Shown: positions 1,454 to 34,414 of the stretch, piece after piece
Layout: each line of letters opens with the position of its first letter
Position numbering within the stretch: position 1 is the first letter of the stretch
DNA from: Bacteroidota bacterium
GTDB lineage: Bacteria > Bacteroidota > Rhodothermia > Rhodothermales > JANQRZ01
Assembly: GCA_038746285.1 (NCBI GenBank)
Contig: JBCDKT010000035.1
Span: forward strand, 1 to 41,166
DNA: 41,166 nt
Direction: 5' to 3'
The notes under the pieces: generated by a model
Database searches by the model: none
What the model saw: only the letters and a program-made list of their open reading frames with translations
Told to the model about the DNA's origin: nothing
Position numbers and translations under genes: made by a program

Positions 1454-1659
1454 GGTGCGGTTGGGTTGGATGAGTAGAGCAGACGCGTGGGATGGCTCAA
1501 CCTAGCCCGCCGCTCGGTTGCCGAGATCACAGGCCTGTTCTCTTCCATTCACGGGCATGTAACGTTTCGGTCACGGCACGCCCCGAGGCCGCGAATCTCC
1601 GGCCCCGGACAGGCGTTTGCTATCTTGCTCCACCCTCCGCAACTCGCTGCCTTGCACCC

Positions 1660-4600
1660 ATGGAAACAACGCCCTACACGCCGACGCACCCCGTCCGCTT
1701 CGTCACCGCCGCCAGCCTCTTCGACGGGCACGACGCCTCGATCAACATCATGCGGCGCATCCTCCAGGCCTCCGGTGCCGAGGTGATCCACCTCGGGCAC
1801 GACCGCTCCGTCCTCGAAGTCGTGAAGACGGCTGTCGAGGAGGACGCCCACGGGATCGCCATCTCGTCCTACCAGGGCGGCCACGTCGAGTACTTCAAGT
1901 ACATGGTCGACCTCCTGCGCGAGCAGGGCTGCGCGCACATCCAGGTCTTCGGCGGCGGCGGTGGGGTGATCGTACCCGAGGAGATCGCCGAGCTCGAGGC
2001 CTACGGCGTGGCGAAGATCTTCTCGCCCGAGGACGGGATGCGGCTCGGCCTCCAGGGCATGATCAACCACATGCTCCGGGTGTGCGACGTGGACCCAGCG
2101 TACAGCGAGCAGAGGGCAGAGGGCAGAGGGATAAGGGGCCAGGGAGGAGAGAGCACAGGCGTGGTCGTGCAGCCTAAGGCGACGGACGCGCGGGCCGTGG
2201 CGCGAGCGCTGACGAGTGTGGAGCAGGGCGGCGGCTCGGCGGGCGATGGGGCGCAGGGTGACCCCGCCTTCCGCGACGCGACGGCCACGGACCACCGCGT
2301 CCCCGTCCTCGGCATCACCGGCACCGGCGGGGCGGGCAAGTCGACCCTCACCGACGAGATCACACGCCGCTTCCTGAGCGACTTCGCCGACATCGAAGTC
2401 GCCGTGCTCTCGGTCGACCCGACGCGGCGGCGGACCGGCGGGGCGCTCCTCGGCGACCGCATCCGCATGAACGCCACCTACGGCGAGCACGCCGACCGGG
2501 TCTACATGCGCTCCTTCGCCACGCGCCAGGCCCACCGCGCCACCAGCCAGGCCCTCCGCGACTCCATCGACGTGTGCCGCGCCGCCGGGTTCGACCTCAT
2601 TATCGTCGAGACCGCCGGCATCGGGCAGAGTGACACCGAGGTCAGCGAGCTCGTCGACGTCTCGCTCTACGTGATGACCCACGACTTCGGCGCGCCGACG
2701 CAGCTCGAAAAGATCGGGATGCTCGACCACGCCGACCTCGTGGCGCTCAACAAGTTCGAGAAGCGCGGCAGCCGCGACGCGCTGCGCGACATCAAGAAGC
2801 AGGTCCAGCGCAACCGCGCGGCCTTCGACCGACCGCCGGACGCCATGCCCGTCTTCGCGACGATGGCGAGCCACTTCAACGACCCCGGCGTCAGCCGCCT
2901 CTACCTCGCCGTCCTCGACCGGCTCCGCCCGCTAGGCTTCGACCGCACGAGCGCGCTCTACGACGCCGACGCGCTCCCCGAGCCGGACCCGTCCGAGCAG
3001 GCCGTGATCCCGCCCAAGCGCCAGCGCTACCTCGCCGAGATCGCCGACCGCTGCCGCGACTACCGATCCTGGGCCGAGGGGCAGGTCGCGCTCGCCCGCA
3101 AGTGGGGGCAGGCCGTCGGCGCCCGGGCGCAAGTCGGGGACTGGCAGCCCGAGGACCAGGAGATGCTGAAGGCGCGGCTTGACGAGATGGCGACGTACTG
3201 GTGGGACAAGCTCGACCCCCGCTGCCGCAACATCATCGGGAACTGGGACGGCCTCGCCGCGAGCTACCGGCAGGACGAGCTCGTCTACGAAGTCCGGGGC
3301 CGCGAAATCCGCCAGCCGCTGACCCACGAGACGCTCTCCGGGACGAAGGTGCCGCGCGTCGCCCTCCCCCGGACCGAGGACCCCGGCGAGCGCCTCCGCT
3401 ACGCGCTTCTCGAAAACCTCCCCGGCTACTTCCCCTTCACCGCGGGCGTCTTCCCGCTCAAGCGCACCGGCGAGGACCCGACCCGGATGTTCGCCGGCGA
3501 GGGCACGCCGGAGCGGACCAACAAGCGCTTCCACCTCGTCTCGCTCGGCCTCCCGGCTAAGCGCCTCTCGACCGCCTTCGACTCGGTCACGCTCTACGGC
3601 CGCGACCCCGACGAGCGGCCCGACATCTACGGCAAGGTCGGCAACGCGGGCGTCTCGATCTGCACGCTCGACGACATGAAGAAGCTCTACTCCGGCTTCG
3701 ACCTCGCCGACCCCAAGACGAGCGTCTCGATGACGATCAACGGCCCCGCGCCGACGATCCTCGCCCTGTTCATGAACACCGCCGTCGACCAGCAGGTCGA
3801 GCAGTTCCTGCGGGCCGAGGGCCGGTGGGACGAGGCCGAAGCCGTGATCGCCGACAAGCTCGGGGACGACCGGCCGGTCTACACGCCGTACGAGGCCGGC
3901 GACCTCCCCGAAGGCCACGACGGCTCCGGCCTTGGTCTTCTCGGCTGCACCGGCCAGGACCTCGCCGACTGGGGCGTGCTCGGCCAGGCCGACTACGACC
4001 GCATCCGCGCCGAGACGCTCAAGGTGGTGCGCGGGACCGTGCAGGCGGACATCCTCAAGGAGGACCAGGCCCAGAACACCTGCATCTTCTCGACCGAGTT
4101 CTCGCTCCGCTGCATGGGTGACATGCAGCAGCATTTCATCGAGCACGACGTGCGCAACTACTACTCGGTCTCGATCTCCGGCTACCACATCGCTGAGGCG
4201 GGCGCGAACCCCATCACCCAACTCGCGCTCACGCTCTCCAACGGGTTCACCTACGTCGAGTACTACCTCAGCCGGGGGATGGACATCGACCGCTTCGCGC
4301 CGAACCTGTCGTTCTTCTTCTCGAACGGGATGGACGCCGAGTACTCCGTCCTCGGGCGCGTCGCCCGGCGCATCTGGTCGGTGGCGATGCGCGACCGCTA
4401 CGGCGCGAACGAGCGGGCGCAGAAGCTGAAGTACCACATCCAGACCTCGGGCCGGAGCCTTCACGCCCAGGAAATCGCCTTCAACGACATCCGCACCACG
4501 CTCCAGGCGCTCGTTGCGATCTACGACAACTGCAACAGCCTCCACACCAACGCCTACGACGAGGCCATCACGACCCCGACCGAGGAGAGCGTCCGCCGCG

Positions 4601-5133
4601 CGATGGCGATCCAGCTCATCATCAACCGCGAACTCGGCCTCGCCAAGAACGAGAACCCGATCCAGGGGGCCTACATCATCGACGAACTGACCGACCTCGT
4701 CGAGGAGGCCGTGCTCGCGGAGTTCGAGCGGATCAACGACCGCGGCGGCGTGCTCGGCGCGATGGAGACGATGTACCAGCGCGGCAAAATCCAGGAAGAG
4801 TCGCTCTACTACGAGCACAAGAAGCACGCGGGCGATCTTCCGGTGATCGGCGTCAACACGTTCACCTCGGGCGACGGGGTGATGGAGGAGACCGAGACCG
4901 TCCCACTCATGCGCTCCACCGACGAGGAGAAGCAGCGCCAGATCGCCAACCTCCGCGCCTTCCAGGCCCGCAACGCCGAGCATGCCGCCGAGGCCCTCGA
5001 CCGCCTGCAGACCGCCGCGCGCGACGGCGGCAACGTCTTCGCCGAGCTGATGGAGACGGCCCAGGTCTGCTCGCTCGGCCAGATCACGACCGCCCTCTTC
5101 GAAGTCGGCGGCCAGTACCGCCGCAACATGTGA
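1660..5133 (+). CDS. icmF: Fused isobutyryl-CoA mutase IcmF (B12 domain, G-protein chaperone, mutase)
   Basis: Adenosylcobalamin-dependent interconversion of isobutyryl-CoA and n-butyryl-CoA; 1157 residues from the ATG at 1660. That start is chosen because the B12 domain begins just after it and the open frame upstream looks non-coding. Domain order is typical: N-terminal B12-binding domain (FDGHDAS, SSYQGGH), a MeaB-like GTPase (Walker [10 protein letters not shown] at about 221-229, [13 protein letters not shown]), then the TIM-barrel mutase. In the mutase, Phe611 (codon 3490, in RMFAGEG) and Gln805 (codon 4072, in QAQNTCIF) match the Phe/Gln pair of isobutyryl-CoA mutases; methylmalonyl-CoA mutase has Tyr/Arg. 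The linker between the B12 and G domains is long, low in complexity and carries a heptamer repeat (2110-2130). The final 46 bp are duplicated at 5664-5709, and the stop codon overlaps the next start (TGATG). Confidence 0.95.
2110..2130. repeat. Heptanucleotide repeat (CAGAGGG)3 inside icmF
   Basis: Three perfect copies of a 7-bp unit lie inside the coding sequence for the interdomain linker of IcmF. The total of 21 bp keeps the frame, but gain or loss of one unit would shift it. Confidence 0.85.
5088..5133 (+). repeat. 3' end of icmF, copy 1 of a flanking direct repeat
   Basis: The last 46 bp of icmF, including the stop codon. An imperfect copy (44 of 46 identical by eye) lies at 5664-5709. 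The two copies bracket the DUF4258 module like the left and right ends of an integrated element. Confidence 0.9.
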
Positions 5134-5456
5134 TGTCTGAGACGCTGGTGCGTATCCAAGCGCTCATCCGCAAACGAAATGTGCGCGTCTCCGCTCACGG
5201 ATACGACGAGTTGGCTGCCGACGATGTCCTCTTCCGGGACGTGCTGACGGGCATGCCCGATGCCGAAATCGTCGAAGACTATCCTGACTACTACAAGGGA
5301 CCGTCCGTGTTAGTGCTGGTCTATGACGACGCGCAGCAGCCGATTCATGTCGTGTGGGGCATCCCGAAAGGGGCCAGCGGACCCGCCGTGTTGGTGACGG
5401 CGTACCGTCCCGACCCCGCTCGGTGGACGGGCGACTTTAGACAGCGAAAGCCATGA
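5133..5456 (+). CDS. DUF4258 domain protein (toxin-like)
   Basis: A 107-residue protein starting at an ATG whose A is the last base of the icmF stop codon. It matches the DUF4258 pattern: an N-terminal helix, then VSAHGYDEL, DAEIVEDYPDYYKGP, a hydrophobic strand VLVLVYDD, PIHVVWGI and a C-terminal VLVTAYRPDPARW. DUF4258 proteins resemble the RelE/HigB-like fold and are often found in two-gene modules that look like toxin-antitoxin pairs. The next gene overlaps by four bases (ATGA), so the two are translationally coupled. A toxin role is inference from family and context. The module sits between two copies of the icmF 3' end and is co-directional with icmF, so it is probably transcribed by read-through. 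Confidence 0.8.
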   Translation: MSETLVRIQALIRKRNVRVSAHGYDELAADDVLFRDVLTGMPDAEIVEDYPDYYKGPSVLVLVYDDAQQPIHVVWGIPKGASGPAVLVTAYRPDPARWTGDFRQRKP

Positions 5457-5665
5457 AGCGGACGACGACGAAGCTGATTCATGAAGGGTCCTATGCCGCT
5501 GAGGTACAGGTAGAGCTTGACGTGACTGATGGCCCCTGGTCGCCTTACCTCGCTCTCGACGAGGCCGAGCGGCTCGACGCAGTCCGAGTCGCACTGCGAA
5601 GCGGGGACGTCCAGACGGCGTCGCAGTATGGACGAGTGTTCCGTCTCAGGCCTGTCGAGGCGTGA
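5453..5665 (+). CDS. Small antitoxin-like partner of the DUF4258 protein
   Basis: A 70-residue acidic protein that overlaps the DUF4258 gene by ATGA. Its sequence (HEGSYAAEVQVEL, GPWSPYLALDEAERLDAVR, ALRSGDVQTAS, RVFRLRPVEA) is of a small conserved type that I recall next to DUF4258 genes, with a beta-strand start and a helical middle. I propose it as the antitoxin or regulatory partner, by position and size only. Its stop codon TGA (5663-5665) overlaps the first two bases of the second icmF-end copy, so the insertion junction lies exactly at the end of this gene. Confidence 0.65.
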   Translation: MKRTTTKLIHEGSYAAEVQVELDVTDGPWSPYLALDEAERLDAVRVALRSGDVQTASQYGRVFRLRPVEA

Positions 5666-5709
5666 CCGCCCTCTTCGAGGTTGGCGGCCAGTACCGCCGC
5701 AACATGTGA
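5664..5709 (+). repeat. Detached second copy of the icmF 3' end
   Basis: 46 bp with two differences from 5088-5133. It retains the last codons and stop of icmF (VGGQYRRNM then stop) but is cut off from the gene by the 530-bp DUF4258 module. It is read here as the original downstream flank of icmF, displaced by the insertion. Confidence 0.9.
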
Positions 5710-13710: not shown

Positions 13711-14658
13711 GTGACGAACGACGACGCGCTGAAGCACGTCCTGGGAATCGAGTTCGGTAGCGCGATCTGCTACTCGGGCTACCGCGAGAACCAATCGCCG
13801 GTGACCCAGGCCTACCCGTCCTACGACGAGGTCTGCGAGGACCTGCGCCTGCTCGACCCCAACTGGCAGTACCTCCGCCTCTACGACTGCAGCCGCCACG
13901 CCGAACTCGTCCTCGACGCCGTCCGCGCCGAGGGGTTCGACTTCAAGGTGATGCTCGGGGCCGACATGCGCGCCGAGGTCAGCAACCCGAAGTGCCCGTG
14001 GGGCGCGACCTACCCCGAGGCCCAACTCGCCGCCAACCGGCAGGCCAACAGCGAGGAGATCGACCGGCTGATCGCGCTCGCCAACCGCTACCCCGAGATT
14101 GTCTTCTCGGTGTCGATCGGCAACGAGGCATCGGTCGAGTGGACGGACCACCTCGTGCCGGTCGATCGGCTCGTCGCGTACGCGCGCCGGGTCAAGGCCG
14201 GGGCCGCGCAGCCGGTGACGTTTTGCGAGAACTACGTCCCGTGGACCGGCACGCTCGAACCGCTCGCCGCCGAGCTCGACTTCCTCTCGCTCCACACCTA
14301 CCCGGTCTGGGAGTACCAGACGATTGAGCGGGCGCTCGACTACACGAAGCAGAACTACCGCAGCGTCGCCGACCACTACCCGGACACACCCGTCATTATC
14401 ACCGAAGCGGGCTGGACGACCGGCTCCAACGGGCGCGGCATCGACCCGTGGAATGCCTCGCAGGAGCTCCAGGCGACCTACTGCCGCCAACTCACCGACT
14501 GGAGCCGCGAGCACCGGATTCTGACCTTCGTCTTCGAAGCCTTCGACGAGCCCTGGAAAGGCTCCCCCGACCCGATGGAGCCCGAGAAGCACTGGGGCCT
14601 CTTCACCGTTGACCGCCGGCCGAAGCGGGCGATGCAGGGGCTTTACGCACGTCAATAA
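13711..14658 (+). CDS. GH17-like glycoside hydrolase, copy 2
   Basis: 315 residues from the GTG at 13711, eight bases after copy 1. It contains SAICYSGYRENQSP, YLRLYDCSRHA, the acid/base candidate in VSIGNEASVEW, LSLHTYPVWEYQ, the nucleophile candidate in IITEAGWTTGSNG, and EAFDEPWKG with a final HWGLF. It resembles copy 1 block by block and is a diverged tandem duplicate. No signal peptide is seen. The last 56 bp (LFTVDRRPKRAMQGLYARQ and stop) reappear in diverged form at 15171-15226, on the far side of the HicBA module, which shows that the module was inserted directly after this gene. Confidence 0.85.
   Translation: MTNDDALKHVLGIEFGSAICYSGYRENQSPVTQAYPSYDEVCEDLRLLDPNWQYLRLYDCSRHAELVLDAVRAEGFDFKVMLGADMRAEVSNPKCPWGATYPEAQLAANRQANSEEIDRLIALANRYPEIVFSVSIGNEASVEWTDHLVPVDRLVAYARRVKAGAAQPVTFCENYVPWTGTLEPLAAELDFLSLHTYPVWEYQTIERALDYTKQNYRSVADHYPDTPVIITEAGWTTGSNGRGIDPWNASQELQATYCRQLTDWSREHRILTFVFEAFDEPWKGSPDPMEPEKHWGLFTVDRRPKRAMQGLYARQ
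14603..14658 (+). repeat. 3' end of GH17 copy 2, flanking repeat copy 1
   Basis: The terminal 56 bp of the gene. About 44 of 56 positions match 15171-15226 without gaps, and the encoded peptide is conserved (TVDRRPKRAMQGLYA versus TVDRWPKRAMQSLYA). Confidence 0.85.
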
Positions 14659-14702: not shown

Positions 14703-14942
14703 GTGATAGCGCAAACGCGACGAACTAAGCCGGTGCTTGAGATGACGATGGAGATAGAACGAGAGGACGATGGACGGTGGCTTGCCGAGGTGATGGAGTT
14801 GCCCGGTGTCATGGCCTACGGCTCGTCCCGCGAGGAGGCGGTCGCTCACGCACAGGCTCTCGCGCTTCGGGTCATTGCCGACCGCCTCGATCACGGCGAG
14901 GACGTTCCTGACATTACGCCGCTGTTCGCGGAAGCGGCATGA
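14703..14942 (+). CDS. hicB: HicB family antitoxin
   Basis: 79 residues from the GTG at 14703. A start at the ATG at 14742 would cut into the first strand. It has the HicB partial RNase-H-like fold: MTMEIEREDDGRWLAEVMELPGVMAYGSSREEAVAHAQALALRVIADRL (14742-14888), with the conserved DDGRW, LPGV and G.(S/T).EEA positions. There is no C-terminal DNA-binding domain, so this is the short form. It is followed by HicA with an ATGA overlap. Gene order is antitoxin first, the reverse of E. coli hicAB but common elsewhere. It would neutralise HicA and could autoregulate through the complex. Confidence 0.88.
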   Translation: MIAQTRRTKPVLEMTMEIEREDDGRWLAEVMELPGVMAYGSSREEAVAHAQALALRVIADRLDHGEDVPDITPLFAEAA

Positions 14943-15154
14943 GCCGCTTTGGCTCTGTCAAAGCTCGAAAGCTCTTGCGTGCCCTCCTCAAGATCGGCTG
15001 GCGTATCAAGCGCGAAGGCCGAGGGTCGCATAGGATTCTGGAGCGCGAAGGGTGGCCCGACATCGTCTTCGCGTTCCACGATGGAGACGAGGTCGGGCCG
15101 AAGATGCTCTCCCGTGTGGCGAAGCGAACGGGTTTGAAGCCGTCAGATCTCTGA
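14939..15154 (+). CDS. hicA: HicA family mRNA interferase toxin
   Basis: 71 residues, ATGA overlap with hicB. It is a HicA/YcfA-like small dsRBD-fold protein: KARKLLRALLKIGWRIKREGRGSHRILEREG (14961-15053), with the catalytic His in GSH, then VFAFHDGDEVGPKMLSRVAKRTGLKPSDL (15066-15152). The Gly-Ser-His motif and the GPKMLSRVAKRTGL helix, which corresponds to the usual G.L..I.K..GL, are intact, so an active mRNA-cleaving toxin is predicted. The stop codon lies 16 bp before the detached GH17 tail. Confidence 0.88.
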   Translation: MSRFGSVKARKLLRALLKIGWRIKREGRGSHRILEREGWPDIVFAFHDGDEVGPKMLSRVAKRTGLKPSDL

Positions 15155-15170: not shown

Positions 15171-15226
15171 TCACCGTCGACCGCTGGCCCAAGCGGGCGA
15201 TGCAGAGTCTCTACGCGCAGCGTTAG
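15171..15226 (+). repeat. Detached diverged copy of the GH17 3' end
   Basis: 56 bp that still encode TVDRWPKRAMQSLYAQR and a stop, but with no upstream gene. It is about 79% identical to 14603-14658. With the icmF and kinase cases it marks the right boundary of an insertion after an open-reading-frame 3' end. Confidence 0.85.
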
Positions 15227-15230
15227 GGAG

Positions 15231-15304
15231 GAACAAAGCGAAGGGTACGCCGACGGCCGTAAGAGCCAAGAAAGCCGACGCTTGGGGTCGGCCTACAGCG
15301 GCGG
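15231..15304. repeat. 74-bp dispersed intergenic repeat, copy 1
   Basis: Ungapped alignment with 18648-18721 gives about 55 of 74 identical positions. Shared words are CGCCGACG, GAGCCAAGAA and CAGCGGCGG. An internal GCCGAC/GTCGGC stem is present. It begins four bases after the detached GH17 tail. Confidence 0.6.
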
Positions 15305-15830: not shown

Positions 15831-16095
15831 TCAGGCGGAACGCTGTGCCAGCGCCAGGGCGCCTTCTACGGGGCGGCGCTCGGGGCGGACGATGCGCCAG
15901 CGGGGGAGGTGGCGCAGGAACGCCTCGGCGAGGCATTCGCGGTAGTAGGCCTCCTGCGTCATCCCGCCGGTGAGGACGAGGCGCGGGGTAAGTGCATCGT
16001 TGGCCTGGGCTACGAGCCACGCGGCGCGCTGGGCGAGCGCGTTGGCCTGCGTCTTGATGATCCGGGTCCCCACCCAGTCGTGGTTCTCCCCGGCG
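15831..16095 (-). pseudogene. Detached 3' fragment of a BadF-type kinase gene
   Basis: This stretch is about 93% identical to the end of the intact kinase gene (20810-21074) and encodes the same C-terminus: AGENHDWVGTRIIKTQANAL, then WLVAQAN, LVLTGGMTQEAYYREC, RHLPRWRIVRPERRPVEGAL, ending AQRSA and a stop instead of AQRAK. The upstream part is missing; beyond 16095 the sequence is unrelated. It is the displaced downstream copy of the kinase 3' end and marks the left boundary of the accessory island. Confidence 0.9.
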
Positions 16096-16161
16096 TCGGC
16101 CTCGAAGCGCGGGCTGTACCGCCGTCTTGCAAGGGCTCGCCTTGTCGGGCCGCTCAGCCGA

Positions 16162-16974
16162 CTACCACCCTGGGGGCTCCGTCCACACCGATACGTCGTC
16201 GAGGAAGACCTCGTTTGAGGCCTCATTATTTCCGTTGGCCGTGATCCCGACCTGCATCCGGGTGTACACCGCGTCGGCCCTGGGTAGCGTGACGCCTGTG
16301 CCGTCCAAGACGAGGTCGTCGTCCTGGTACACCCTCAACCGTCCGCCTGGACCGCTGTCGAGCGTCAGGTCGATCCGGACCCGGAGCCACCGCTCGGTTT
16401 CGAGCGTCGCCGCTGGCGCGCGGAAGGTCGCATCGCGGCACCACTTCCCCAGGTCCGACGCGAACGACCTCCCCAGCGGTCCGCTGAGGTACAGCCGACG
16501 CCCGGGGGCGGGGCAGACCGCCGCTGTCCCCTCGGCGGGGCACGACGACTCGTCCGTGCACGTCTCCGGTGCCTCGAGGTCCCACAGGAAGACGTCCCGC
16601 GTGGCCCCGCTCTCGGCCATCCACACCCAGAACTCGACCCACACCCGGTCGCCGTCTCGGAGGCGCAGGCGCTCGAGAACGAGGTCCGCCTTCGACGCTG
16701 TCTCCCCGTCGTACGGTTCGGCCACTAGGCGCACCGACTGACGTCCCGAGCGGCTGCGCGCCGCCGTGAGTTCCACGCGGTTCGAGCCGGAGGTGCGCTG
16801 AAGGTTCGTCCACCGGGAGCCGTCGGAGGCAAAAAGGTCTTCGATCCGCTCGGCCGACTCGAAGTCCTCCGTAAACACCCCGTCGATCACGGGGAAGGGC
16901 TCCGGCGGGGGCACGGTCGGGTCGCAGCCGAGTGTACCTAGAGCGAGCAGGAGTACGGGGAGGCTGCGGCCCAT
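16162..16974 (-). CDS. Lipoprotein with predicted jelly-roll (polysaccharide-lyase-like) domain
   Basis: 270 residues. It starts with a signal peptide and lipobox (LLLALGTLGC, Cys at about 17) followed by DPTVPPPEP, so it is a predicted outer-membrane or surface lipoprotein. The mature part alternates beta-strands (FTEDFESAERIEDLF, NRVELTAARSRSGRQSVRLV, DRVWVEFWVWM, GRLRVYQDDDLVLDG, MQVGITANG and a final VFLDDVSVW). This resembles the concanavalin-A-like fold of the heparin-lyase/alginate-lyase type and of LamG-like carbohydrate-binding proteins. I see no certain catalytic set, so a binding role is equally possible. Four Cys residues in the central insertion may form disulphides. It lies in the island bounded by the kinase 3'-end copies. 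Confidence 0.6.
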   Translation of the reverse strand: MGRSLPVLLLALGTLGCDPTVPPPEPFPVIDGVFTEDFESAERIEDLFASDGSRWTNLQRTSGSNRVELTAARSRSGRQSVRLVAEPYDGETASKADLVLERLRLRDGDRVWVEFWVWMAESGATRDVFLWDLEAPETCTDESSCPAEGTAAVCPAPGRRLYLSGPLGRSFASDLGKWCRDATFRAPAATLETERWLRVRIDLTLDSGPGGRLRVYQDDDLVLDGTGVTLPRADAVYTRMQVGITANGNNEASNEVFLDDVSVWTEPPGW

Positions 16975-17055
16975 GGGGAGGCGGGGTCGAGAAGTGTAAA
17001 GGATGTCGCCGGTCAGAACTGCAAAGAAACTACCCGGCTCCTACAGGCAAGGTAA

Positions 17056-18180
17056 CTACTGCTCGTGGCCGAACACGAAGTGGTCGAGGAACGCCCGGGC
17101 GTACGGGGACCGCTCGGCAGCCGCCCCGTCGAGCGGGTTGTCCCAGTGGACCCCCTCCCCGTTCGCGAGCACGACGAGGGCGAGCCCGCGCGACGGCACA
17201 CGCAGCAGCAGCGACGACGCGCCGGCCTCGTCGTCCCACCCGGCGTGCCACACGAGCCGCTCGCCCCGGTAGTCCTGAACGTACCAGCCGTACGCGTACG
17301 GGAGCGGCCGTCCCTCCCGGTCGAGCGGCGGCGTGGTCAGCTTCTCCATCACGGCGGGCGACGCGAGCGACCCGGCGTCGAGTGCCTCGGCATACCTCGC
17401 GAGGTCGAGCGCGGTCGAGACGACGCCCGCGCCGCCCGCCAGCGCCCGCCCCGGTTGGCGGCGCTGGACGTACTCGCCGTCCACGATCCCGTACCCCCGC
17501 GCCATGTCGTACACCACGTCCATCTTCGAGCGGTCCCACTGGCTCGCCACCGTCCGCGTCATGCCCGCCGGGCCGAGCACGCGCGCTTGGACTTGGCGCG
17601 CGAGTTCGTTCATGCCGCCCTCGATCTCCGTCGAGTCGTTCACGGTCCATTCGAGGTACCGCGAGAGACGAGAGAACATGAGGGGGTTGTAGAAGAAGGC
17701 GTGGCCGAGGTCCCCGTTCGACGTGTGGGTGAGGACAGTCCCGACGGTGATCGGGGCGGCGCAGTCAAGGCCGCGCTTGAACACGAGCGGGGACCGCGAG
17801 AGCCACTCGCAGAACCCGTCGAAACCGGGCACCTCCGCCATCCGGGCGTCGAGGTCCACGACGCCGTCGGCTTCGAGGCCGAGGAACGTGAGGCCGATGA
17901 ACGTTTTCGTCACCGACGCGACCCAGAACGGGGTGTCGGGCGTGACGGGGACCTCTTCGTCCGTGTCGGCGACGCCGAACCCGTCGGCCCAGACGGGCTC
18001 GCCCCTGCGGACGACGGCCACGGCAAGCCCCGGCGTCGGATGGGCGCGCCAGACCGAGTCGAGGGTTGGTCGGAAGGAGTCGAGCGACGGCGGGCGTTCG
18101 AGGCCCTGCGCCTGTGCGACGCGGAGGGCGAGGAGCGACAGCGCGACCAAGCCGAGGCGCCGCACCAGAGGGTTTTGCAT
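17056..18180 (-). CDS. Secreted serine hydrolase, beta-lactamase class C family
   Basis: 374 residues with a Sec signal peptide (LGLVALSLLALRVAQAQ). It is a member of the AmpC/esterase/D-Ala-D-Ala-peptidase-like family (PF00144). Motif 1 is S89-V-T-K92 (WVASVTKTF), and the C-terminal HAG motif is in VWHAGWDDEAG. The Tyr motif is probably in FFYNPLMFS, where the usual Y-x-N is compressed. Long loops (EVPGFDGFCEWLSR, VFKRGLDCA) carry a Cys pair. These proteins act on periplasmic or extracellular esters or peptides, and the substrate cannot be deduced. The gene is not obviously coupled to its neighbours (81 bp and 50 bp gaps) but is co-directional with the whole island. Confidence 0.85.
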   Translation of the reverse strand: MQNPLVRRLGLVALSLLALRVAQAQGLERPPSLDSFRPTLDSVWRAHPTPGLAVAVVRRGEPVWADGFGVADTDEEVPVTPDTPFWVASVTKTFIGLTFLGLEADGVVDLDARMAEVPGFDGFCEWLSRSPLVFKRGLDCAAPITVGTVLTHTSNGDLGHAFFYNPLMFSRLSRYLEWTVNDSTEIEGGMNELARQVQARVLGPAGMTRTVASQWDRSKMDVVYDMARGYGIVDGEYVQRRQPGRALAGGAGVVSTALDLARYAEALDAGSLASPAVMEKLTTPPLDREGRPLPYAYGWYVQDYRGERLVWHAGWDDEAGASSLLLRVPSRGLALVVLANGEGVHWDNPLDGAAAERSPYARAFLDHFVFGHEQ

Positions 18181-18230
18181 GAGCGAGGAGAGAGTGCGGG
18201 CTAACGGAGTGGCGCTTCAGCCGCGCGGTG

Positions 18231-18587
18231 CTAGTGGTGCATTTCTAGTACGACAAGCGAGGCCGCGCCGGACCACCGCCAGCGCGTTGGGTAGTAGAAG
18301 TAGCTGTCCGGGAAGTCACCGAGGTGGTGGCCGTCCTCCGAGGGGTCGGCGAGGTGCGGGCGGACCTCCGACTTCCAGAACTCGAATGTCTCCGATCCCG
18401 GAACCCACCGGAGCGGAGCGCCCACGTTGGCGACGACAAACTGAACGGAGCCGAGGCGGAGCAACTCGCGCAACGTCGCTTCGCTCAGATCTGCCTCTCG
18501 CTCCGTCGCTACGACCTCACCCGCCTCGGTCCACACCTCTGGTAGCGGAGTGCGAGTGACCTGCCGGACGAAGCCAGTCTCAGGCAT
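18231..18587 (-). CDS. Hypothetical protein
   Basis: 118 residues from the ATG at 18587; the open frame upstream of that ATG does not look protein-like. I do not recognise the family. It is mixed alpha/beta: TGFVRQVTRTPLPEVWTEAG, EADLSEATLRELLRLGSVQFVVANVGAPLRWV, FEFWKSEVRPHLAD, then YFYYPTRWRWSGAASLVVLEMHH. The middle segment (LRELLRLGSVQFVVANVG) looks like a helix followed by a buried strand. No signal peptide. It belongs to the accessory island and has normal (high) GC content, unlike the GTPase operon beside it. Confidence 0.5.
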   Translation of the reverse strand: MPETGFVRQVTRTPLPEVWTEAGEVVATEREADLSEATLRELLRLGSVQFVVANVGAPLRWVPGSETFEFWKSEVRPHLADPSEDGHHLGDFPDSYFYYPTRWRWSGAASLVVLEMHH

Positions 18588-19136
18588 GGCGAGAGCGCGG
18601 TAGAACAGAAGGCCGCTCAACCGCGAAGGGCTGAGGGCACAATGACAGAACGAAGCGAAAGTAGCGCCGACGCTCGGACGAGCCAAGAACGCTGGCGCCC
18701 TTCGTCGGCTTGCAGCGGCGGGACGCTTCCAAGAAGGTACGTGCTGCCCTATATTGCTGCTACCCCTGCGTGGCCCGCCGCCGCAAGCCCCACGCATAAC
18801 TGACGCCACAGCTCACGCTTGGCGTCGCCCATCTCGGGAATGGGAAGCGGCGGTGTGCATCGACGAAACGCGTCTGGGATGCGGGCTACGGCCTCCAGCT
18901 GCAGCCCGCCTCACTCGTTGGAGTGAGCGAGCCCGTTGAGGGGTTTGGTCGCCCGTAGGCACCGGGAAGGTGGCCTGCCGGGTACCCTGCATCGACGCAG
19001 AGTGAGCGGCCACGAGAGCGGGGGCGGAGTTGAAGGCGTGCGCGAAGTCTATTGACTGGGGCCAGGCCGTATGCCTGCAGCCCCTTCTCCTACTTGTGTC
19101 AGCCCTACATCAACTTCTTTGAGGGGTTGTGCCGCG
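18588..19136. other. Gene-free stretch inside the island
   Basis: About 550 bp. It holds the 74-bp repeat and a small perfect hairpin at about 18911-18928 (CTCACTC, GTTG, GAGTGAG). I see no convincing open frame. Confidence 0.5.
18648..18721. repeat. 74-bp dispersed intergenic repeat, copy 2
   Basis: Matches 15231-15304 without gaps at about 74% identity. A GCCGACG/CGTCGGC stem closes most of the element. It lies upstream of the 118-residue hypothetical gene. Confidence 0.6.
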
Positions 19137-19751
19137 CTAGTGGAAGCGTGAGGATTGATTAGATAATACCTCAATCATGGACTCAAAATCGGCAAGTCTA
19201 AGCGCCAGTTCAATTCGGGTAGATTCTTTTATGTCAGAATGCTCAATGCTCTGAGAAACCGATCTTGCTAAATTTATCAGGGGGCCTCTCAGGTTCCTGA
19301 ATCTGGTTGCTACTGCTTCGGCTGAGGAGTCGGACAGGGCAGGCCGTCTCGGGTCTCCATCTAGGAATCTTGAGAGACGATCTATTCCAGAGGCCATCCA
19401 CTGAGTGTACTCCTTTAAGAGAGGAATAGCTTGGACTGGGCTGAACACCGATGACTTTCGCTCAATGCGATTCAGAAGGCCCCTAAGTTCAATGAGACGC
19501 ACGCGAGCTTCTAGCCAAGCAGAACTAGAAGGGCCAACCTCATACCTGTCGAGCACATCAGATGCATAGCGCTGTAGCATATCGTACAGCTCATACATGC
19601 TCCTGAATTCCATTCCGTTCTGGAGCAAGTCGGCAGAATCAGAAGCAGCAGACTCGTCTAGGCTAGACCTTAGCTTGTCGTTATACTCCTTCAGTAGAGA
19701 TGACAAACGGTCAAGCTCTTTTCTGGCAAATACGTTTTCCGGCTCGTTCAT
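19137..19751 (-). CDS. Helical partner protein of the GTPase
   Basis: 204 residues, almost all predicted alpha-helix with heptad-like spacing (LDRLSSLLKEYNDKL, EFRSMYELYDMLQRYASDVLDRYE, ARVRLIELRGLLNRIE, YTQWMASGIDRLSRFL, FRNLRGPLINLARSVSQSIEHSDI, LRLADFESMIEVLSNQS). I do not recognise the family. It starts in a 4-bp ATGA overlap with the upstream GTPase gene, so the two are made together and probably form a complex. The base composition (near 50% GC) matches the GTPase gene and is far below the flanking sequence, so the pair was acquired together. No membrane segment is present. Confidence 0.75.
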   Translation of the reverse strand: MNEPENVFARKELDRLSSLLKEYNDKLRSSLDESAASDSADLLQNGMEFRSMYELYDMLQRYASDVLDRYEVGPSSSAWLEARVRLIELRGLLNRIERKSSVFSPVQAIPLLKEYTQWMASGIDRLSRFLDGDPRRPALSDSSAEAVATRFRNLRGPLINLARSVSQSIEHSDIKESTRIELALRLADFESMIEVLSNQSSRFH

Positions 19752-20599
19752 GCTTCCCAGTCTTTAAGTGCAATTAGCGTCTCCCAAAAGCGCTGCAGCG
19801 AGTGCGCTTGGGCGGCCTGATCGTATCCAGCCACTGTCGGGGCGAGCACTTCACCCTTTCCGGTCGTAAAATTATAGATTACCAGTGACACTGGAGTCAT
19901 TTCGTGTCTAAACATTTTGCCACCAAGCGCGCTCGATATGTCGACCACTATTTCTCCAATCGGACCTTCCTCGTAGAAATGAACGACCTCCCTCGACCTG
20001 TCCGACCAAAGATCTTGCTTGGTGACCAAGCTCAGCAGCCAGATTTTCTTGTCACATGACTTGATGAAAGGAGCCAGTCGCTTATAAACGCTGACCTCGT
20101 CGGCCCTACTGCTTTCTAGATACTGGGACATGAATTCAGATTCGTCTCCTGTGTAGAGTCTGTTTTCTTTGTAGCTGTTTCCTAGGCTATGGTAGCCATA
20201 AGCAGTCAGCACAACGATACCCCTATACTCGCCACCTGCGATTCCGGCTTCGAGGTCCGACCAAGTGGAGTCACGCCTGTGTCGCTGGCCTGGAGGGATG
20301 ACAAGCTCTACGTTCTCATCGTCGGCAAGAGGCACTCTTTCAACCCCGAGACTTTCCAGGTACTCAGTTTGAGTATCGAGAAGGGTGTCATGGTCGCCGC
20401 TTAGCAGCCTAGCAGTAGTGGATTTTCCGACGCCACCAGGGCCAATAATTAGCACGCCTCGCTCAACTCCTTCTGCATCCTTCTGAGGGCGAGACAACCA
20501 CTCTCTGATCTTGCCGACCTGCCCAACCAGCCAATCCCTGTTCTTCCAAAGGAAGCTACCAAGCTCAGTCCACACGTTTTTGGCAGGTTCGTCAGTCAT
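19748..20599 (-). CDS. Predicted P-loop GTPase of unknown role
   Basis: 283 residues. Walker A is GPGGVGKST (53-61). A switch-II-like PPGQRHRRDSTW follows (103-113 region), in which the usual Asp of DxxG is replaced (VIPPGQ). The base-recognition motif is TKQD (193-196), in place of NKxD. The N-terminus (VWTELGSFLWKNRDWLVGQVGKIREWL) is amphipathic. The arrangement suggests a Ras/Arf/MglA-like small GTPase fold with extensions; nucleotide specificity is inferred from TKQD only. The low GC content, the tight pairing with a helical protein and the location between direct repeats suggest a mobile accessory system, possibly anti-phage or signalling. That role is speculative. Confidence 0.75.
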   Translation of the reverse strand: MTDEPAKNVWTELGSFLWKNRDWLVGQVGKIREWLSRPQKDAEGVERGVLIIGPGGVGKSTTARLLSGDHDTLLDTQTEYLESLGVERVPLADDENVELVIPPGQRHRRDSTWSDLEAGIAGGEYRGIVVLTAYGYHSLGNSYKENRLYTGDESEFMSQYLESSRADEVSVYKRLAPFIKSCDKKIWLLSLVTKQDLWSDRSREVVHFYEEGPIGEIVVDISSALGGKMFRHEMTPVSLVIYNFTTGKGEVLAPTVAGYDQAAQAHSLQRFWETLIALKDWEA

Positions 20600-20731
20600 G
20601 AGGCGCTGCCCCGATCAGTTTGGGAGGTAAATCTACCACCGCTGCTTGACCCAGACCCACACGAACCCGAGGGCGCGGCATAACTACTACTTCACGAGCG
20701 CGGGCGGCTCGGTAAGGGTCGGAATCGGCCC

Positions 20732-20737
20732 ATTATA
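20732..20737 (-). promoter_or_regulatory. TATAAT -10 box for the GTPase operon
   Basis: A perfect TATAAT on the minus strand in a GC-rich context, about 130 bp before the GTPase start. The -35 region is not clear. A 10-bp inverted repeat (CGCGCTCGCT and its complement) lies just upstream and could be an operator or the terminator of the kinase gene. Confidence 0.45.
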
Positions 20738-20809
20738 CGGCGCGCTCGCTTGCGAAACGTGCCGCTCAGGCGCTTAGCGAGCGCGGAGCTGCATAAGAAC
20801 CGGTTCGAG

Positions 20810-21709
20810 CTACTTCGCACGCTGCGCCAGCGCCAGGGCACCCTCGACGGGGCGGCGCTCGGGGCGGACGATGCGCCAGCGGGGGAGGTGGCGCAGGAAC
20901 GCCTCGGCGAGGCACTCGCGGTAGTACGCCTCCTGCGTCATCCCGCCGGTGAGGACGAGGCGCGGCGCAAGCTCGCCCTCGGCCTGGGTCACGAGCCACG
21001 CGGCGCGCTGCGCGAGCGCGTTGGCCTGCGTCTTGATGATCCGGGTCCCCACCCAGTCGTGGTTCTCCCCGGCCGCGACCGCGAGCGGGGCGAGCGTCTG
21101 GACCGCGAGGTCGCCGCCGTAGACGAACCGGATGAGGTCCTCCGCCGAGGCGAGGCCGTGCTCGTCGGCGAGGAGGTGGCGGAGCGCGGTCGGCTCGCCC
21201 CCGTCGAAGTCGGCGGCGACGGCGGCGAGCACGGCGGTGCCGAGGGCGGTGCCGCTGCCCTCGTCGCCGATGCGCGCGCCCCAGCCCCCGGCCCGGAGCA
21301 GCGCTCCGTCTTCGGTGCGCCCCAGCACGAGCGACCCGGTCCCGACGAGCGCCACGAGGCCACTCTCCCCCCCGAACGCGGCTTCGAGCGCGATCACCCC
21401 GTCGTGCTCAACCACGAGCGGCACGTCCGCGATCTCGGGAAGCCGAGCGCGAAGCCGAGCGGCGAGGTCGGCCTGCTCGTGCGCGCGCCCGGCTCCGGCC
21501 ACGCCGAGGCAGACCCCGCCGACGGCCTCGTGGTCGAGCGCGGCGAGGGCCGTGCGGAGCAGACCGGCCAGCGCGTCGCTGCTCTGCGCGGCTCCGTCGC
21601 GCTGAAGGTTCACCCCGGCCCCACGCCCCCCGGCCTCGGCCCGACCTGCGCGGGCCAGCCACTCGGTCTTCGTCCCGCCCGCGTCGATGCCGATGTAGAG
21701 AGGAGACAC
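20810..21709 (-). CDS. BadF/BadG/BcrA-type sugar kinase (N-acetylglucosamine kinase-like)
   Basis: 299 residues from a GTG start. It is an ASKHA-fold kinase: GIDAGGTKTEWLA (phosphate 1), LVVEHDGVIALEAAFGG, LVALVGTGSLVLG (phosphate 2), GGWGARIGDEGSG, and LVLTGGMTQEAYY near the end (adenosine site). This is the pattern of N-acetylglucosamine/glucosamine kinases of the BadF family, so ATP-dependent phosphorylation of an amino sugar in the cytosol is likely. The last ~265 bp occur again at 15831-16095, on the far side of a 4.7-kb island. The penicillin-acylase gene lies upstream on the same strand, 188 bp away. Confidence 0.88.
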   Translation of the reverse strand: MSPLYIGIDAGGTKTEWLARAGRAEAGGRGAGVNLQRDGAAQSSDALAGLLRTALAALDHEAVGGVCLGVAGAGRAHEQADLAARLRARLPEIADVPLVVEHDGVIALEAAFGGESGLVALVGTGSLVLGRTEDGALLRAGGWGARIGDEGSGTALGTAVLAAVAADFDGGEPTALRHLLADEHGLASAEDLIRFVYGGDLAVQTLAPLAVAAGENHDWVGTRIIKTQANALAQRAAWLVTQAEGELAPRLVLTGGMTQEAYYRECLAEAFLRHLPRWRIVRPERRPVEGALALAQRAK

Positions 21710-21790
21710 GGGTTGCTATCCTCGAGGTGTGACGTTGATGTAACTGCCGCGCTGCGTCTCTGCCATGGCGTTCTTGCACGGACGACCACA

Positions 21791-21841
21791 GACGGCAGAC
21801 CGCGGACGACAGGCAGAGACAACGCCCGGCGGTCTACCGTC
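21791..21841. repeat. Inverted repeat between the acylase and kinase genes
   Basis: GACGGCAGACCG (21791-21802) pairs with CGGTCTACCGTC (21830-21841) with one mismatch. Both arms are made of short recurring words (GACGGCAGAC, CGGACGAC). It follows the stop codon of the minus-strand acylase gene. Confidence 0.55.
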
Positions 21842-21897
21842 CGCCGTCCGTCGTCGAGAGGCTGACGCGCGCGGTGAGCTGAGCAGAAATATCATCC

Positions 21898-23967
21898 CTA
21901 TTCCTCCGCGGGTAGCAGTCGCAGCGTATGCACCGTCTCGGGGGCTTGCCCGACGGGGCGCGGCTGGAGCGGACGCGCCGACGCGAGCGAGCGGGTGCGG
22001 GCGTCGTCGGCGTTCGGGTTGCGGTGGCGGATGCGGAGGTCCGCCGCGCCCGGCACGGTCGCCTGCGCCGACCAGACGGCGCTCGGCTCGGTGCCGGCGA
22101 GGGCCGGCGAGGGCCCCCATGCGAGGGCCGGCGAGGGCCCCCATGCGAGGGCCGTCGGGTGGCCGCCGTCGGGAAGGAGGATCGGCGCGAAGCGGCGGCG
22201 GCCTGCGTCCGTCGTGTCGGTCGTAAAGAGCGGGTAGAGGCGGACGGCCTGCTGCACGTTCTGCCAGCGCCAGCGCGCCCCGTCCGAGCCGTAGGCCGAG
22301 TCTATCGCCGCCACCGCCTGCCGGAGCGACTGCGTGAGCGCCACGGCCGCCGGGTTTGGCATCACCCTGCCCGTCGAGTCGGGCGGCGGCGGGGGTGCCG
22401 ACACTGCGGCCGGATCGGGGAGGGTACCGGTGCGCGCGCGGTGCGTCGCCATCCAGGTCTCGAACACCGAGGCTCCGATCGAGGCAGGATCGTAGCGGAA
22501 GTCCCAGCCCCGGAGGTAGGCCGCCGCGTCGCGGAGATCGGCGTCGATCTCGCCCGGCCCGTCGAGGGCTGCGATGAGCGGCGGGGCGAGAGCCGCCGCC
22601 CACGCACTGTAGGCGTCGGCGAGAAGACCGTCCGGCCCGGTGTCGGTGCTGCCGGCGGCGAGGAGCGCGAGGCGGTCGGCGACGTAGCGGGCCTCGTCGC
22701 TCGACCCGGCGACCACGCCTCCCGGCAGCGACCGGGCGACGGCCGGGCTGCCCAGCACCCGCGCCTGCCCGTCCTCGGCGATCAGGCCCGTTCCGGGGAA
22801 GAGGGCGAACGTCGCGGCCTCGCCTCGCAGCAGCGCGCGCCACGCGCCGAGGTCCGTCGCCGTCCCGAAGCCGCGCCACCGGAGCTGCCACGTCGAAAGC
22901 ACGGGCGGCGCGGAGGCGGAGTCCTGCACGACGGGGGCCGGCGCAGTCTCGTTCGGGGCGAAGAGGTGGAGCGCGTCCGGCGAGCGGTAGACCGTCACGA
23001 GCGTTTCGTCGCCGCTACGGGCCGTGATCCGGTCGTAGCTCGGGACGAGCGCGGCCGAGTCGGTGGGGGCCGAGACGAGGTCGGTGGTTCCGTTCAGGAA
23101 GAGGCTCCACGCCGTGCGGTCGCCGTAGCCCGCCGGGAAGACGAGCGTGCCGGGAACCGAGGCCACCACAGTCTGCCGCCCGCCTTGCCGCAGCGCGACC
23201 TCCTGGAGCAGGGGCAGCGCCGAGCGGCCGTAGACGTGCCGCTGCACGAACTGCGTCCCGGCCGAGTTCTGGACGGCGAAGGCGAGGCTGTGCTCCAGCC
23301 CGCCGACCCGGAGCGTAGCCCGAAACGCCGAGTCCGCCGCGACGAACCGCCCCAGCGATGGGCTCGCCCGGTACGCGTCCTGCGCGAGCGAGTCGGCGAG
23401 GGTCGAGGCGGACGCGGCGAGGTAGGCGACGAGGCGCTCGACCGCGAGCGCGTCCCACGGCTCCCACCGGCGGGCGTCGACGTCGAGGAGCACGAACTCG
23501 TCGCCTTCGCTGAGGCGGTCCCGCTCGAAGGCCCGGTTGACGCCGCGTGCGTAGGCGCCGAGCACGGTCCGGTCGGCCTCGGGAAGCGCGTCGTAGAGCG
23601 TCCGGGCAAGCGCGCCAAACCCGAGCTGCAGCGCGTGTCGGTCGAAGGCGAGCGTCGCCTCGTCGTCGAACCACTGGCTGAGCGAGCCCGTCGCAGCCTG
23701 GCGCCGGAGCGCCATCGGCCATGCGTTGTGGAGCGCGTGCGCGTACCCCAGCCCCGCCATCAGGTCCGCCTCGCTCTGCGCCTCGACGGTGGCGAGCCCG
23801 TCAGCGTCGTGGGTGACCGTGACGGATGCACCGAGGCCGGGCACGCGCACCTCGCCGTCCAGGCTTGGGCCGGTCTCGTAGGCGAGGTACCACGCCGTCA
23901 GCGCCAGCCCGGTCACCGCCAGCAGGACGACGAGGAGGGTGGTGAGAAGGCGACCGAGCAGGGGCAT
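21898..23967 (-). CDS. Divergent penicillin acylase (Ntn hydrolase) family protein
   Basis: 689 residues. A single N-terminal hydrophobic segment (LLTTLLVVLLAVTGLALTAWYLAY) anchors or exports it. GEVRVPGLGASVTVTHDADGLATVEAQSEADLMAGLGYAHAL (23725-23850) is the usual start of a penicillin acylase alpha subunit. The self-processing serine of the family normally lies in a GSNxW motif; the best candidate here is Ser227 in EHSLAFAVQ, where the following Asn is Leu and the Trp is Phe. The autocatalytic site may therefore be altered. The later AWSLFLNGTTDL and the C-terminal WRWQNVQQAVRLYPLF fit the family. A 24-bp tandem repeat near the C-terminus encodes two and a half copies of an eight-residue unit rich in Pro, Ala and Trp. 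Substrates of family members include acyl-homoserine lactones and N-acyl amino acids; unknown here. Confidence 0.8.
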   Translation of the reverse strand: MPLLGRLLTTLLVVLLAVTGLALTAWYLAYETGPSLDGEVRVPGLGASVTVTHDADGLATVEAQSEADLMAGLGYAHALHNAWPMALRRQAATGSLSQWFDDEATLAFDRHALQLGFGALARTLYDALPEADRTVLGAYARGVNRAFERDRLSEGDEFVLLDVDARRWEPWDALAVERLVAYLAASASTLADSLAQDAYRASPSLGRFVAADSAFRATLRVGGLEHSLAFAVQNSAGTQFVQRHVYGRSALPLLQEVALRQGGRQTVVASVPGTLVFPAGYGDRTAWSLFLNGTTDLVSAPTDSAALVPSYDRITARSGDETLVTVYRSPDALHLFAPNETAPAPVVQDSASAPPVLSTWQLRWRGFGTATDLGAWRALLRGEAATFALFPGTGLIAEDGQARVLGSPAVARSLPGGVVAGSSDEARYVADRLALLAAGSTDTGPDGLLADAYSAWAAALAPPLIAALDGPGEIDADLRDAAAYLRGWDFRYDPASIGASVFETWMATHRARTGTLPDPAAVSAPPPPPDSTGRVMPNPAAVALTQSLRQAVAAIDSAYGSDGARWRWQNVQQAVRLYPLFTTDTTDAGRRRFAPILLPDGGHPTALAWGPSPALAWGPSPALAGTEPSAVWSAQATVPGAADLRIRHRNPNADDARTRSLASARPLQPRPVGQAPETVHTLRLLPAEE
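22097..22154. repeat. 24-bp in-frame tandem repeat in the acylase gene
   Basis: Two exact copies (22097-22120, 22121-22144) and ten bases of a third. The unit encodes eight residues (PSPALAWG in permuted order), so copy-number change keeps the frame. Confidence 0.9.
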
Positions 23968-33442: not shown

Positions 33443-33453
33443 GCGCTGCGCGC

Positions 33454-33536
33454 GGGTTTCTGGTTTTTCGTTTCTAGTTTTTGGTTGATGAGAACGACCG
33501 AGCGCGCTCAACCAGAAACTAGGAACCAGAAACCCC
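33454..33536. repeat. Imperfect inverted repeat spanning the EamA gene start
   Basis: The left arm (33454-33488) is built from GTTTCTGGTT / GTTTCTAGTTT words, and the right arm (33508-33536) is the matching CAACCAGAAACTAGGAACC sequence. The right arm is read as ETRNQKP at the N-terminus of the EamA protein. Confidence 0.7.
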
Positions 33537-34414
33537 GAACGCCTCGCCGGGTCTGGCTCGCGTTGGCCTGTGGCATCATCTCGATCAGCTTCAGCGCGAT
33601 CCTGGTGCGCTACGGCGCGGCGGCACCCGGCCTCGCCCTCGCTGCGTGGCGGACGACGTTCGCGGTGCTGCTCCTCGCGCCCGTCGCGCTGCCCCGCATC
33701 GGCCCCGAGGTGCGGCGCTTCGCCCGGCGGGACTGGACGCTGATCCTCGCGGGCGGCGTCTTCCTCGGGTTCCACTTCATCGCGTGGATCGAGTCGCTCT
33801 ACCACACGAGCGTGGCGAGCGCCTCGGTCCTCGTCACGACGAGCCCGCTGTTCATCGCGGTCCTCGGCTACGCCTTCCTGCGCGAGCGCCTGACGCTGCG
33901 CACGACCGGGGCGATCCTGGTCGCGGTGGCCGGGGCGGTGCTGATCGGCGTGGGCGACGCGGGGGACGAGACGTTTTCGAACGCGTCGTGGGGCAACGCC
34001 CTTGCGCTGCTCGCGTCGCTCCTGATCTCGGGCTACCTCCTGATCGGGCGGGCGGTGCGGCAGCGGGTCTCGCTCCTGGCCTACCTCTTCCCGCTCTACA
34101 CCGTCGCCGCACTCACCATCCTCCTCGTCGCCCTCGCGGCCGAGACCGACCTCGTGCAGCCGTGGCCGATCCTCGGGCTCTGCCTCGCTATGGCGGTCTT
34201 CCCTCAACTCGTCGGACACGGGGCGTTCAACTACGCCGTCAAGTTTCTCCCGGCCGCGCTCCTCGGGCTGCTCTCGCTCTTGGAGCCGATCATCGGCGCG
34301 GGGCTAGCTTACATCCTGTTCGACGAGGTGCCGGGGCCGCTCGCGTTCGTCGGCATGGTGGTCGTGCTCGCGTCCGTCGCCGTCGTCTTCGCGCCGCGCT
34401 CACGCTGGACCTAG
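33488..34414 (+). CDS. EamA/DMT superfamily transporter
   Basis: 308 residues with ten predicted membrane helices in two EamA halves. Landmarks are ISISFSAILVRYGAAAPGLALAAWRTTFAVLLLAPVAL (33572-33685), FLGFHFIAWIESLYHTSVASASVLVTTSPLFIA, LRERLT and GAILVAVAGAVLIGVGD in half one. Half two holds GNALALLASLLISGYLLIGRA, VFPQLVGHGAFNYAVKFLPAALLGLLSLLEPIIGAGLAYILFDEVPG and the final helix. It is an inner-membrane exporter of metabolites or amino acids, substrate unknown. The first 20 or so residues (TERAQPETRNQKPRTPRR) come from the inverted-repeat sequence and may not be native. The 3' end overlaps the convergent glycosyltransferase gene by 15 bp. Confidence 0.85.
   Translation: MRTTERAQPETRNQKPRTPRRVWLALACGIISISFSAILVRYGAAAPGLALAAWRTTFAVLLLAPVALPRIGPEVRRFARRDWTLILAGGVFLGFHFIAWIESLYHTSVASASVLVTTSPLFIAVLGYAFLRERLTLRTTGAILVAVAGAVLIGVGDAGDETFSNASWGNALALLASLLISGYLLIGRAVRQRVSLLAYLFPLYTVAALTILLVALAAETDLVQPWPILGLCLAMAVFPQLVGHGAFNYAVKFLPAALLGLLSLLEPIIGAGLAYILFDEVPGPLAFVGMVVVLASVAVVFAPRSRWT

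Follow-up and report, generated by a model that had tools for sequence, protein, structure and literature searches.

A duplicated kinase 3′ end flanking a 4.7-kb island is one of a genome-wide series of gene-tail duplications

In a 41,166-nucleotide stretch of DNA from a Bacteroidota bacterium (contig JBCDKT010000035.1 of assembly GCA_038746285.1; hereafter the window), a kinase gene is followed by an island of about 4.7 kb and then by a second copy of its own 3′ end. We found that this arrangement is not peculiar to the kinase but is part of a genome-wide series of gene-tail duplications. The kinase island probably arose by homology-anchored acquisition of a related lineage's gene tail together with its cargo. 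How chromosomal toxin–antitoxin modules move without a transposase or an integrase is an old question. In this genome every insertion can still be read from its scar, a second allele of the last 28–266 bases of the host gene, which shows where the insert begins and ends and, when a relative can be compared, which side is native.

A kinase-tail repeat around a patchy island

The intact BadF/BcrA-type kinase gene lies on the minus strand at 20810–21709 (Pfam BcrAD_BadFG, E 1e-22; a weak NagK-like NCBIfam match was below the cut-off). Self-comparison placed one repeat copy within its 3′ end (20819–21084, minus strand) and the other in a detached kinase 3′ end (15840–16105, minus strand), which is 92% identical to the intact end and has an in-frame stop. 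Together they form a direct repeat of 266 nt with 92.1% identity, in the same orientation and 4979 bases apart from start to start. Identity is patchy, near 100% for the most part, with the differences in one cluster; the last two codons differ (..AK* in the intact copy, ..SA* in the detached one) and the stops are in register. Over the 11 kb examined in and around the island, the second-longest direct repeat measures 46 nt, so the kinase-tail repeat did not arise by chance. An earlier note on this DNA had described a kinase 3′ end occurring twice around an island of about 4.7 kb, and the repeat is real; the detached copy, which the note put at 15831–16095, lies within 10 bases of that position, and the genes between the copies, said there to share the kinase strand, are five minus-strand genes.

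These genes encode a lipoprotein-like protein (16162–16974; weak Polysacc_lyase match), a serine hydrolase of the Beta-lactamase/esterase family (17056–18180; Beta-lactamase family, E 2e-38), a 118-amino-acid hypothetical protein (18231–18587; start codon chosen in this analysis), a 204-amino-acid protein with no confident family (19137–19751) and a 283-amino-acid P-loop (GTPase-like) protein (19748–20599), the last two genes overlapping. The 204-amino-acid protein gave a weak match to bacterial death-like domain 3 (E 0.003, below the cut-off). Behind the kinase stop, 130 bp that contain a hairpin (20678–20809, minus strand) are conserved in G001 (JANQRZ010000003.1), the nearest relative compared.

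Where the earlier note spoke of a GTPase pair, the 283-amino-acid protein does have a P-loop, but its partner has no confident family. The low-GC cargo that it described is limited to this pair (19137–20599), in which GC is near 0.5, compared with 0.7 in the genome (GC 0.49/0.52 and GC3 0.50/0.56 for the two genes, with a GC3 of 0.56 for the P-loop gene); GC3 is 0.93 in the serine hydrolase gene, 0.87 in the lipoprotein gene and 0.93 in the kinase gene, a clear mixture that supports a patchwork. A search of 39 relatives did not find the GTPase-like gene, and one of 29 relatives did not find the lipoprotein-like gene. With the mixed GC3, this indicates that the island between the kinase-tail copies was acquired and is a patchwork in composition, which supports part of the earlier note's interpretation. 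The idea that several events had built it at one site gained no support: a close kinase orthologue occurs in one relative only, G001 (about 84–85% amino acid identity), and has a single copy of the tail and other downstream genes. The closest relative found for the GTPase-like protein was a GTPase-domain protein on Rhodococcus plasmids (26% identity). We rejected its gene as a known defence gene, as the best PADLOC match reached only E 0.015 and there was no viral relative; it and the gene for the 204-amino-acid protein form a rare two-gene pair, possibly a conflict system.

Two further detached tails lie in the window, both on the plus strand. Self-comparison showed that the last 46 nt of icmF (gene 1492–5133; repeat copy 5088–5133, ending at the stop) recur, stop included, 530 bp downstream at 5664–5709 with 96% identity. 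They follow a cassette (5130–5665) made up of a DUF4258 toxin-like gene (5130–5456; family match) and a gene for a 70-amino-acid partner (5453–5665). The 3′ end of a GH17 gene (gene 13711–14658; repeat copy 14603–14648) likewise recurs at 15171–15216 with 87% identity and an in-frame stop in register, behind a cassette (14703–15154) of hicB (14703–14942; weak matches only) and hicA (14939–15154; family match).

Gene-tail duplications across the genome

We surveyed 1.22 Mb (30%) of the window's fragmented genome, G000 (134 contigs, 4.08 Mb), and its 801 genes called by a simple GC3 rule. A lone downstream second copy of the gene's last 28–266 nt was found for 12 of the 801 genes, at a distance of 0.5–4.8 kb, a count that is approximate because of the fragmentation, the 30% coverage, the simple gene calls and a comparison with one close relative and no donor. 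All 12 copies end no more than about 10 nt from the stop. The kinase is counted among the 12 although the script classed its detached copy, which an open reading frame covers, as a paralogue. Lone 3′ copies ended near the stop in 12 of 13 cases (p about 1e-11), and the 5′ mirror-image control gave one anchored case, a dispersed repeat. The two gene ends of a pair are 80–100% identical, and the host genes are ordinary enzymes; they include icmF and, named from sequence, a pyrophosphatase-like gene, carB, comEC and mutS. Gene pairs that share C-terminal domains (among them C1 165270 onward, C15 1804 onward and C18) were left out as paralogue artefacts. The same arrangement occurs in relatives, at 2 of 293 genes in G001, 3 of 303 in G002 and 1 of 276 in G012. 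Misassembly at the junction between cargo and detached tail may explain single loci; the G012 case, in a single-contig relative, speaks against such an artefact.

Several individual loci add detail. At G000:C1, copies of a minus-strand gene end (..LKLPQR*; 33446–33492 and 34054–34100) flank two small genes in what is probably one more gene-tail duplication; it lies 1 kb from the case at C1 31277, so that two cassettes stand close together. At G000:C16 (13353–13445 and 15786–15869), the intact gene stops early (..HDAR*) and the detached copy runs longer (..HDTVLGDPAAYGVPEQ*). The displaced tail may therefore be the fuller original. In G001, a PPK2 gene beside the kinase region has a detached tail of its own (L032 15353–15400 and 16745–16792), and the two copies enclose an NTF2-like gene (named by eye) and a TetR-like gene; the kinase neighbourhood has thus been invaded independently in both lineages.

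Toxin–antitoxin genes in the inserts

All eight inserts shorter than 1 kb carry toxin–antitoxin-type genes: DUF4258, HicA with a weak HicB, PIN_3, DUF4160, DUF5615 with DUF433 (twice), PIN and a ParE-like gene whose match was below the cut-off. One 4.7-kb insert also contains a FitA/PIN pair. Starting from the cargo, we found a host-tail duplicate within 1.5 kb of 7 of the 31 PIN/DUF433 loci in the whole genome, compared with 5 of 600 random loci (p 2e-7), and an eighth of the 31, the FitA/PIN locus, has a tail duplicate at 4.7 kb. There is overlap between these loci and the 12 genes, so that the two counts are views of one set rather than independent confirmations. GC3 is 0.50–0.73 in the toxin–antitoxin genes and the GTPase pair, compared with 0.92–0.93 in host genes, which points to a foreign origin of the cargo; the hydrolase and lipoprotein genes of the kinase island are the exceptions.

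About two dozen toxin–antitoxin loci in other families of the order had no gene-tail duplicates, which suggests that the habit is enriched in this lineage. A donor search with six cassette proteins in 29 relatives found no genome in which the same host gene was followed by the same cargo (best match 61% amino acid identity), and no gene-tail repeats at the loci tested in other genomes. A PIN-domain gene at L184 (G000:C1, about 21316–22444) lies between two 205-nt direct repeats that are 90% identical; these resemble a miniature element whose ends are GTCATCCCGAGCGGAG / CTCGGGATGAC, and as a type of flank they differ from the gene tails.

Differences between the two copies

Over 11 cases, the two copies differ at 14 first, 14 second and 48 third codon positions, a third-position bias that holds even with a null of 0.43 for third positions (p 3e-4). 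In the kinase, GH17, C1 and C15 cases, the last one to three codons differ and the stop codons are still in register. Similarity between copies usually ends at the stop, where orthologues of G000 and G001 likewise lose similarity. On these three grounds, the copies look like the alleles of two lineages. More changes fall on the detached branch (51) than on the intact one (13), so some pseudogene decay is mixed in.

The copies could instead have been made in place while foreign DNA was captured, whether by replication slippage, by template switching or at a long staggered break, and with no foreign allele. The mutS pair fits this idea, being 98% identical over 59 nt and extending 15 nt past the stop, as does a C1 pair with 31 of 31 positions identical. 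We nevertheless consider it unlikely: the copies differ chiefly at third positions and keep stops in register despite different last codons, and a fresh copy would include non-coding DNA, yet similarity ends near the stop except at mutS.

Comparison with G001 indicates which copy is native. The detached tail and the DNA that follows it are collinear with insert-free G001 at comEC (84% over 1529 nt) and with the G001 empty site at mutS (73% over 272 nt) and at the L200 host gene (72% over 690 nt), so at these three genes the detached tail is resident and a new tail arrived with the cargo. L200 is the weakest of the three, as its C-terminal domain recurs in many genes. In G001, the gene that follows the detached copy at C15 likewise lies downstream of the orthologue, at a distance of 1.3 kb.

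For the kinase, displacement may have run either way, because G001 shares the 130-bp stretch that follows the intact stop but not the sequence past the detached copy. It is possible, if somewhat doubtful, that at this one gene the detached 266 nt came in from outside and that the resident is the intact gene together with its 130-bp flank. Besides the alignment of that flank with G001, the intact ..AK* ending agrees with the last codons in G001 and the detached ..SA* does not. Such a polarity would be the opposite of that at comEC, mutS and L200, and an extra step would be needed to put the cargo between the copies.

Origin of the arrangement

According to the homology-anchored account that we favour, a related lineage would have supplied DNA in which its own version of the kinase 3′ end was followed by the cargo, and this DNA would have recombined with the resident kinase gene. 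The first crossover would be homologous and inside the gene; the second would link the far end of the cargo to the resident gene at a point some hundreds of bases short of the kinase stop. The outcome would be a complete gene with the tail of one allele, then the cargo, then the tail of the other allele as a detached fragment, and the same type of event would have recurred at many genes of this genome, mostly bringing short toxin–antitoxin cassettes. The third-position-biased alleles and the polarity at three genes place one junction in homologous DNA of a different allele. The acquired tail would then be the one now in the intact gene, and the second join was presumably non-homologous or the closure of a circle. 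In homology-facilitated illegitimate recombination, such a join usually falls at a few bases of microhomology; on reading the junctions by eye, we saw no shared motif. Several results count against the homology-anchored account: the G001 match of the kinase flank, the donor search, which found no donor genome, the surplus of changes on the detached branch and the shortness of the detached pieces. These are mostly under 100 nt, and random breakpoints would leave longer ones; we propose that long repeats are preferentially lost. Recombination between direct repeats would be expected to remove cargo, and addiction cargo to withstand such loss. Toxin–antitoxin genes may thus predominate because other cargo is lost between the repeats and cells that loop out a toxin–antitoxin cassette are killed.

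A circular intermediate would lead to the same final anatomy: a circle with a gene tail and cargo would integrate by a single homologous crossover of the Campbell type, and the direct repeats would let the cargo leave as just such a circle. Circular intermediates have been put forward for rhs tips. The circular route is a variant of the homology-anchored account that differs in its second step, and we regard it as not very likely, since neither a circle nor a donor was seen and the origin of so many different gene tails on circles would be unexplained. Another alternative is an integrative element, placed at the 3′ end of the kinase gene by an integrase, with the two copies as attL and attR. 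In its favour, the repeat lies at the stop codon, and islands of this kind classically sit at the 3′ end of a gene and have a direct repeat. Att sites are short and identical, whereas these copies are 266 nt long and 8% diverged; the arrangement recurs at at least a dozen unrelated hosts, with many cassettes of about 0.5–0.8 kb holding toxin–antitoxin-type genes only; and gene and protein-family searches found no integrase, other recombinase or tRNA in or next to the element. We therefore hold an integrase to be very improbable. There was no match to a transposase among the island proteins, and we rejected transposon insertion, for which the repeats are also too variable and diverged (28–266 nt, not a short identical target duplication). 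Integron cassettes, which the direct orientation and GTTATGC-like intergenic motifs had brought to mind, seemed unlikely from a reading of the intergenic sequences by eye. There is also a slim chance that the small toxin–antitoxin units are dedicated mobile cassettes that use the target 3′ end as a homing arm, restore the gene and make their own loss lethal; if so, chromosomal toxin–antitoxin modules would have a way to spread free of any transposase.

Relation to known systems

The architecture is known from Rhs and T6SS tip displacement; the setting is new, and the toxin–antitoxin cargo differs. In Rhs systems, incoming 3′ ends bring downstream genes with them, with homologous recombination as the proposed route, and old 3′ ends are shunted downstream, detached and attached to variable lengths of conserved gene (Jackson et al. 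2009, PMC2935791). Here, too, a detached old 3′ end lies downstream of an intact gene. Rhs tips, however, alter the toxin part, whereas the gene end here is nearly unchanged (80–100%) and gains no new toxin domain; the genes affected (icmF, comEC, mutS, carB) are ordinary ones, and most of the cargo consists of toxin–antitoxin pairs. Displacement of T6SS effector–immunity genes was ascribed to homology-facilitated illegitimate recombination (Kirchberger et al. 2017, PMC5361080; PMC11751169), which, as we propose here, combines one homologous anchor with one non-homologous join. In that system, old 3′ parts and immunity genes are moved downstream, as are the displaced tails here, but the process is confined to secretion-system loci and the present arrangement is spread over the genome.

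Two other cases come close. The portion of PMC2884548 considered here ascribes short variable segments to homology-assisted illegitimate recombination; like the inserts in G000, these are small and without mobile-element genes, and some are flanked by direct repeats, but the repeats are mostly under 30 bp and that portion reports no gene-tail displacement or toxin–antitoxin link. In Microcystis, a toxin–antitoxin module flanked by direct repeats lies behind the orthocaspase gene maOC1 (PMC7935541), similarly just downstream of a gene, but its 152-bp repeats are outside the coding sequence, are identical and have inverted repeats within them, and so are not gene tails.

Other repeats in the window

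Positions 15231–15304 and 18648–18721 of the window are intergenic copies (74% identical) of a dispersed repeat about 75 nt long, which occurs again in the same genome at C27:8149 (86%) and C10:46967 (81%). Within an acylase-like gene (21898–23967), positions 22097–22144 are a perfect 24-nt tandem duplication.
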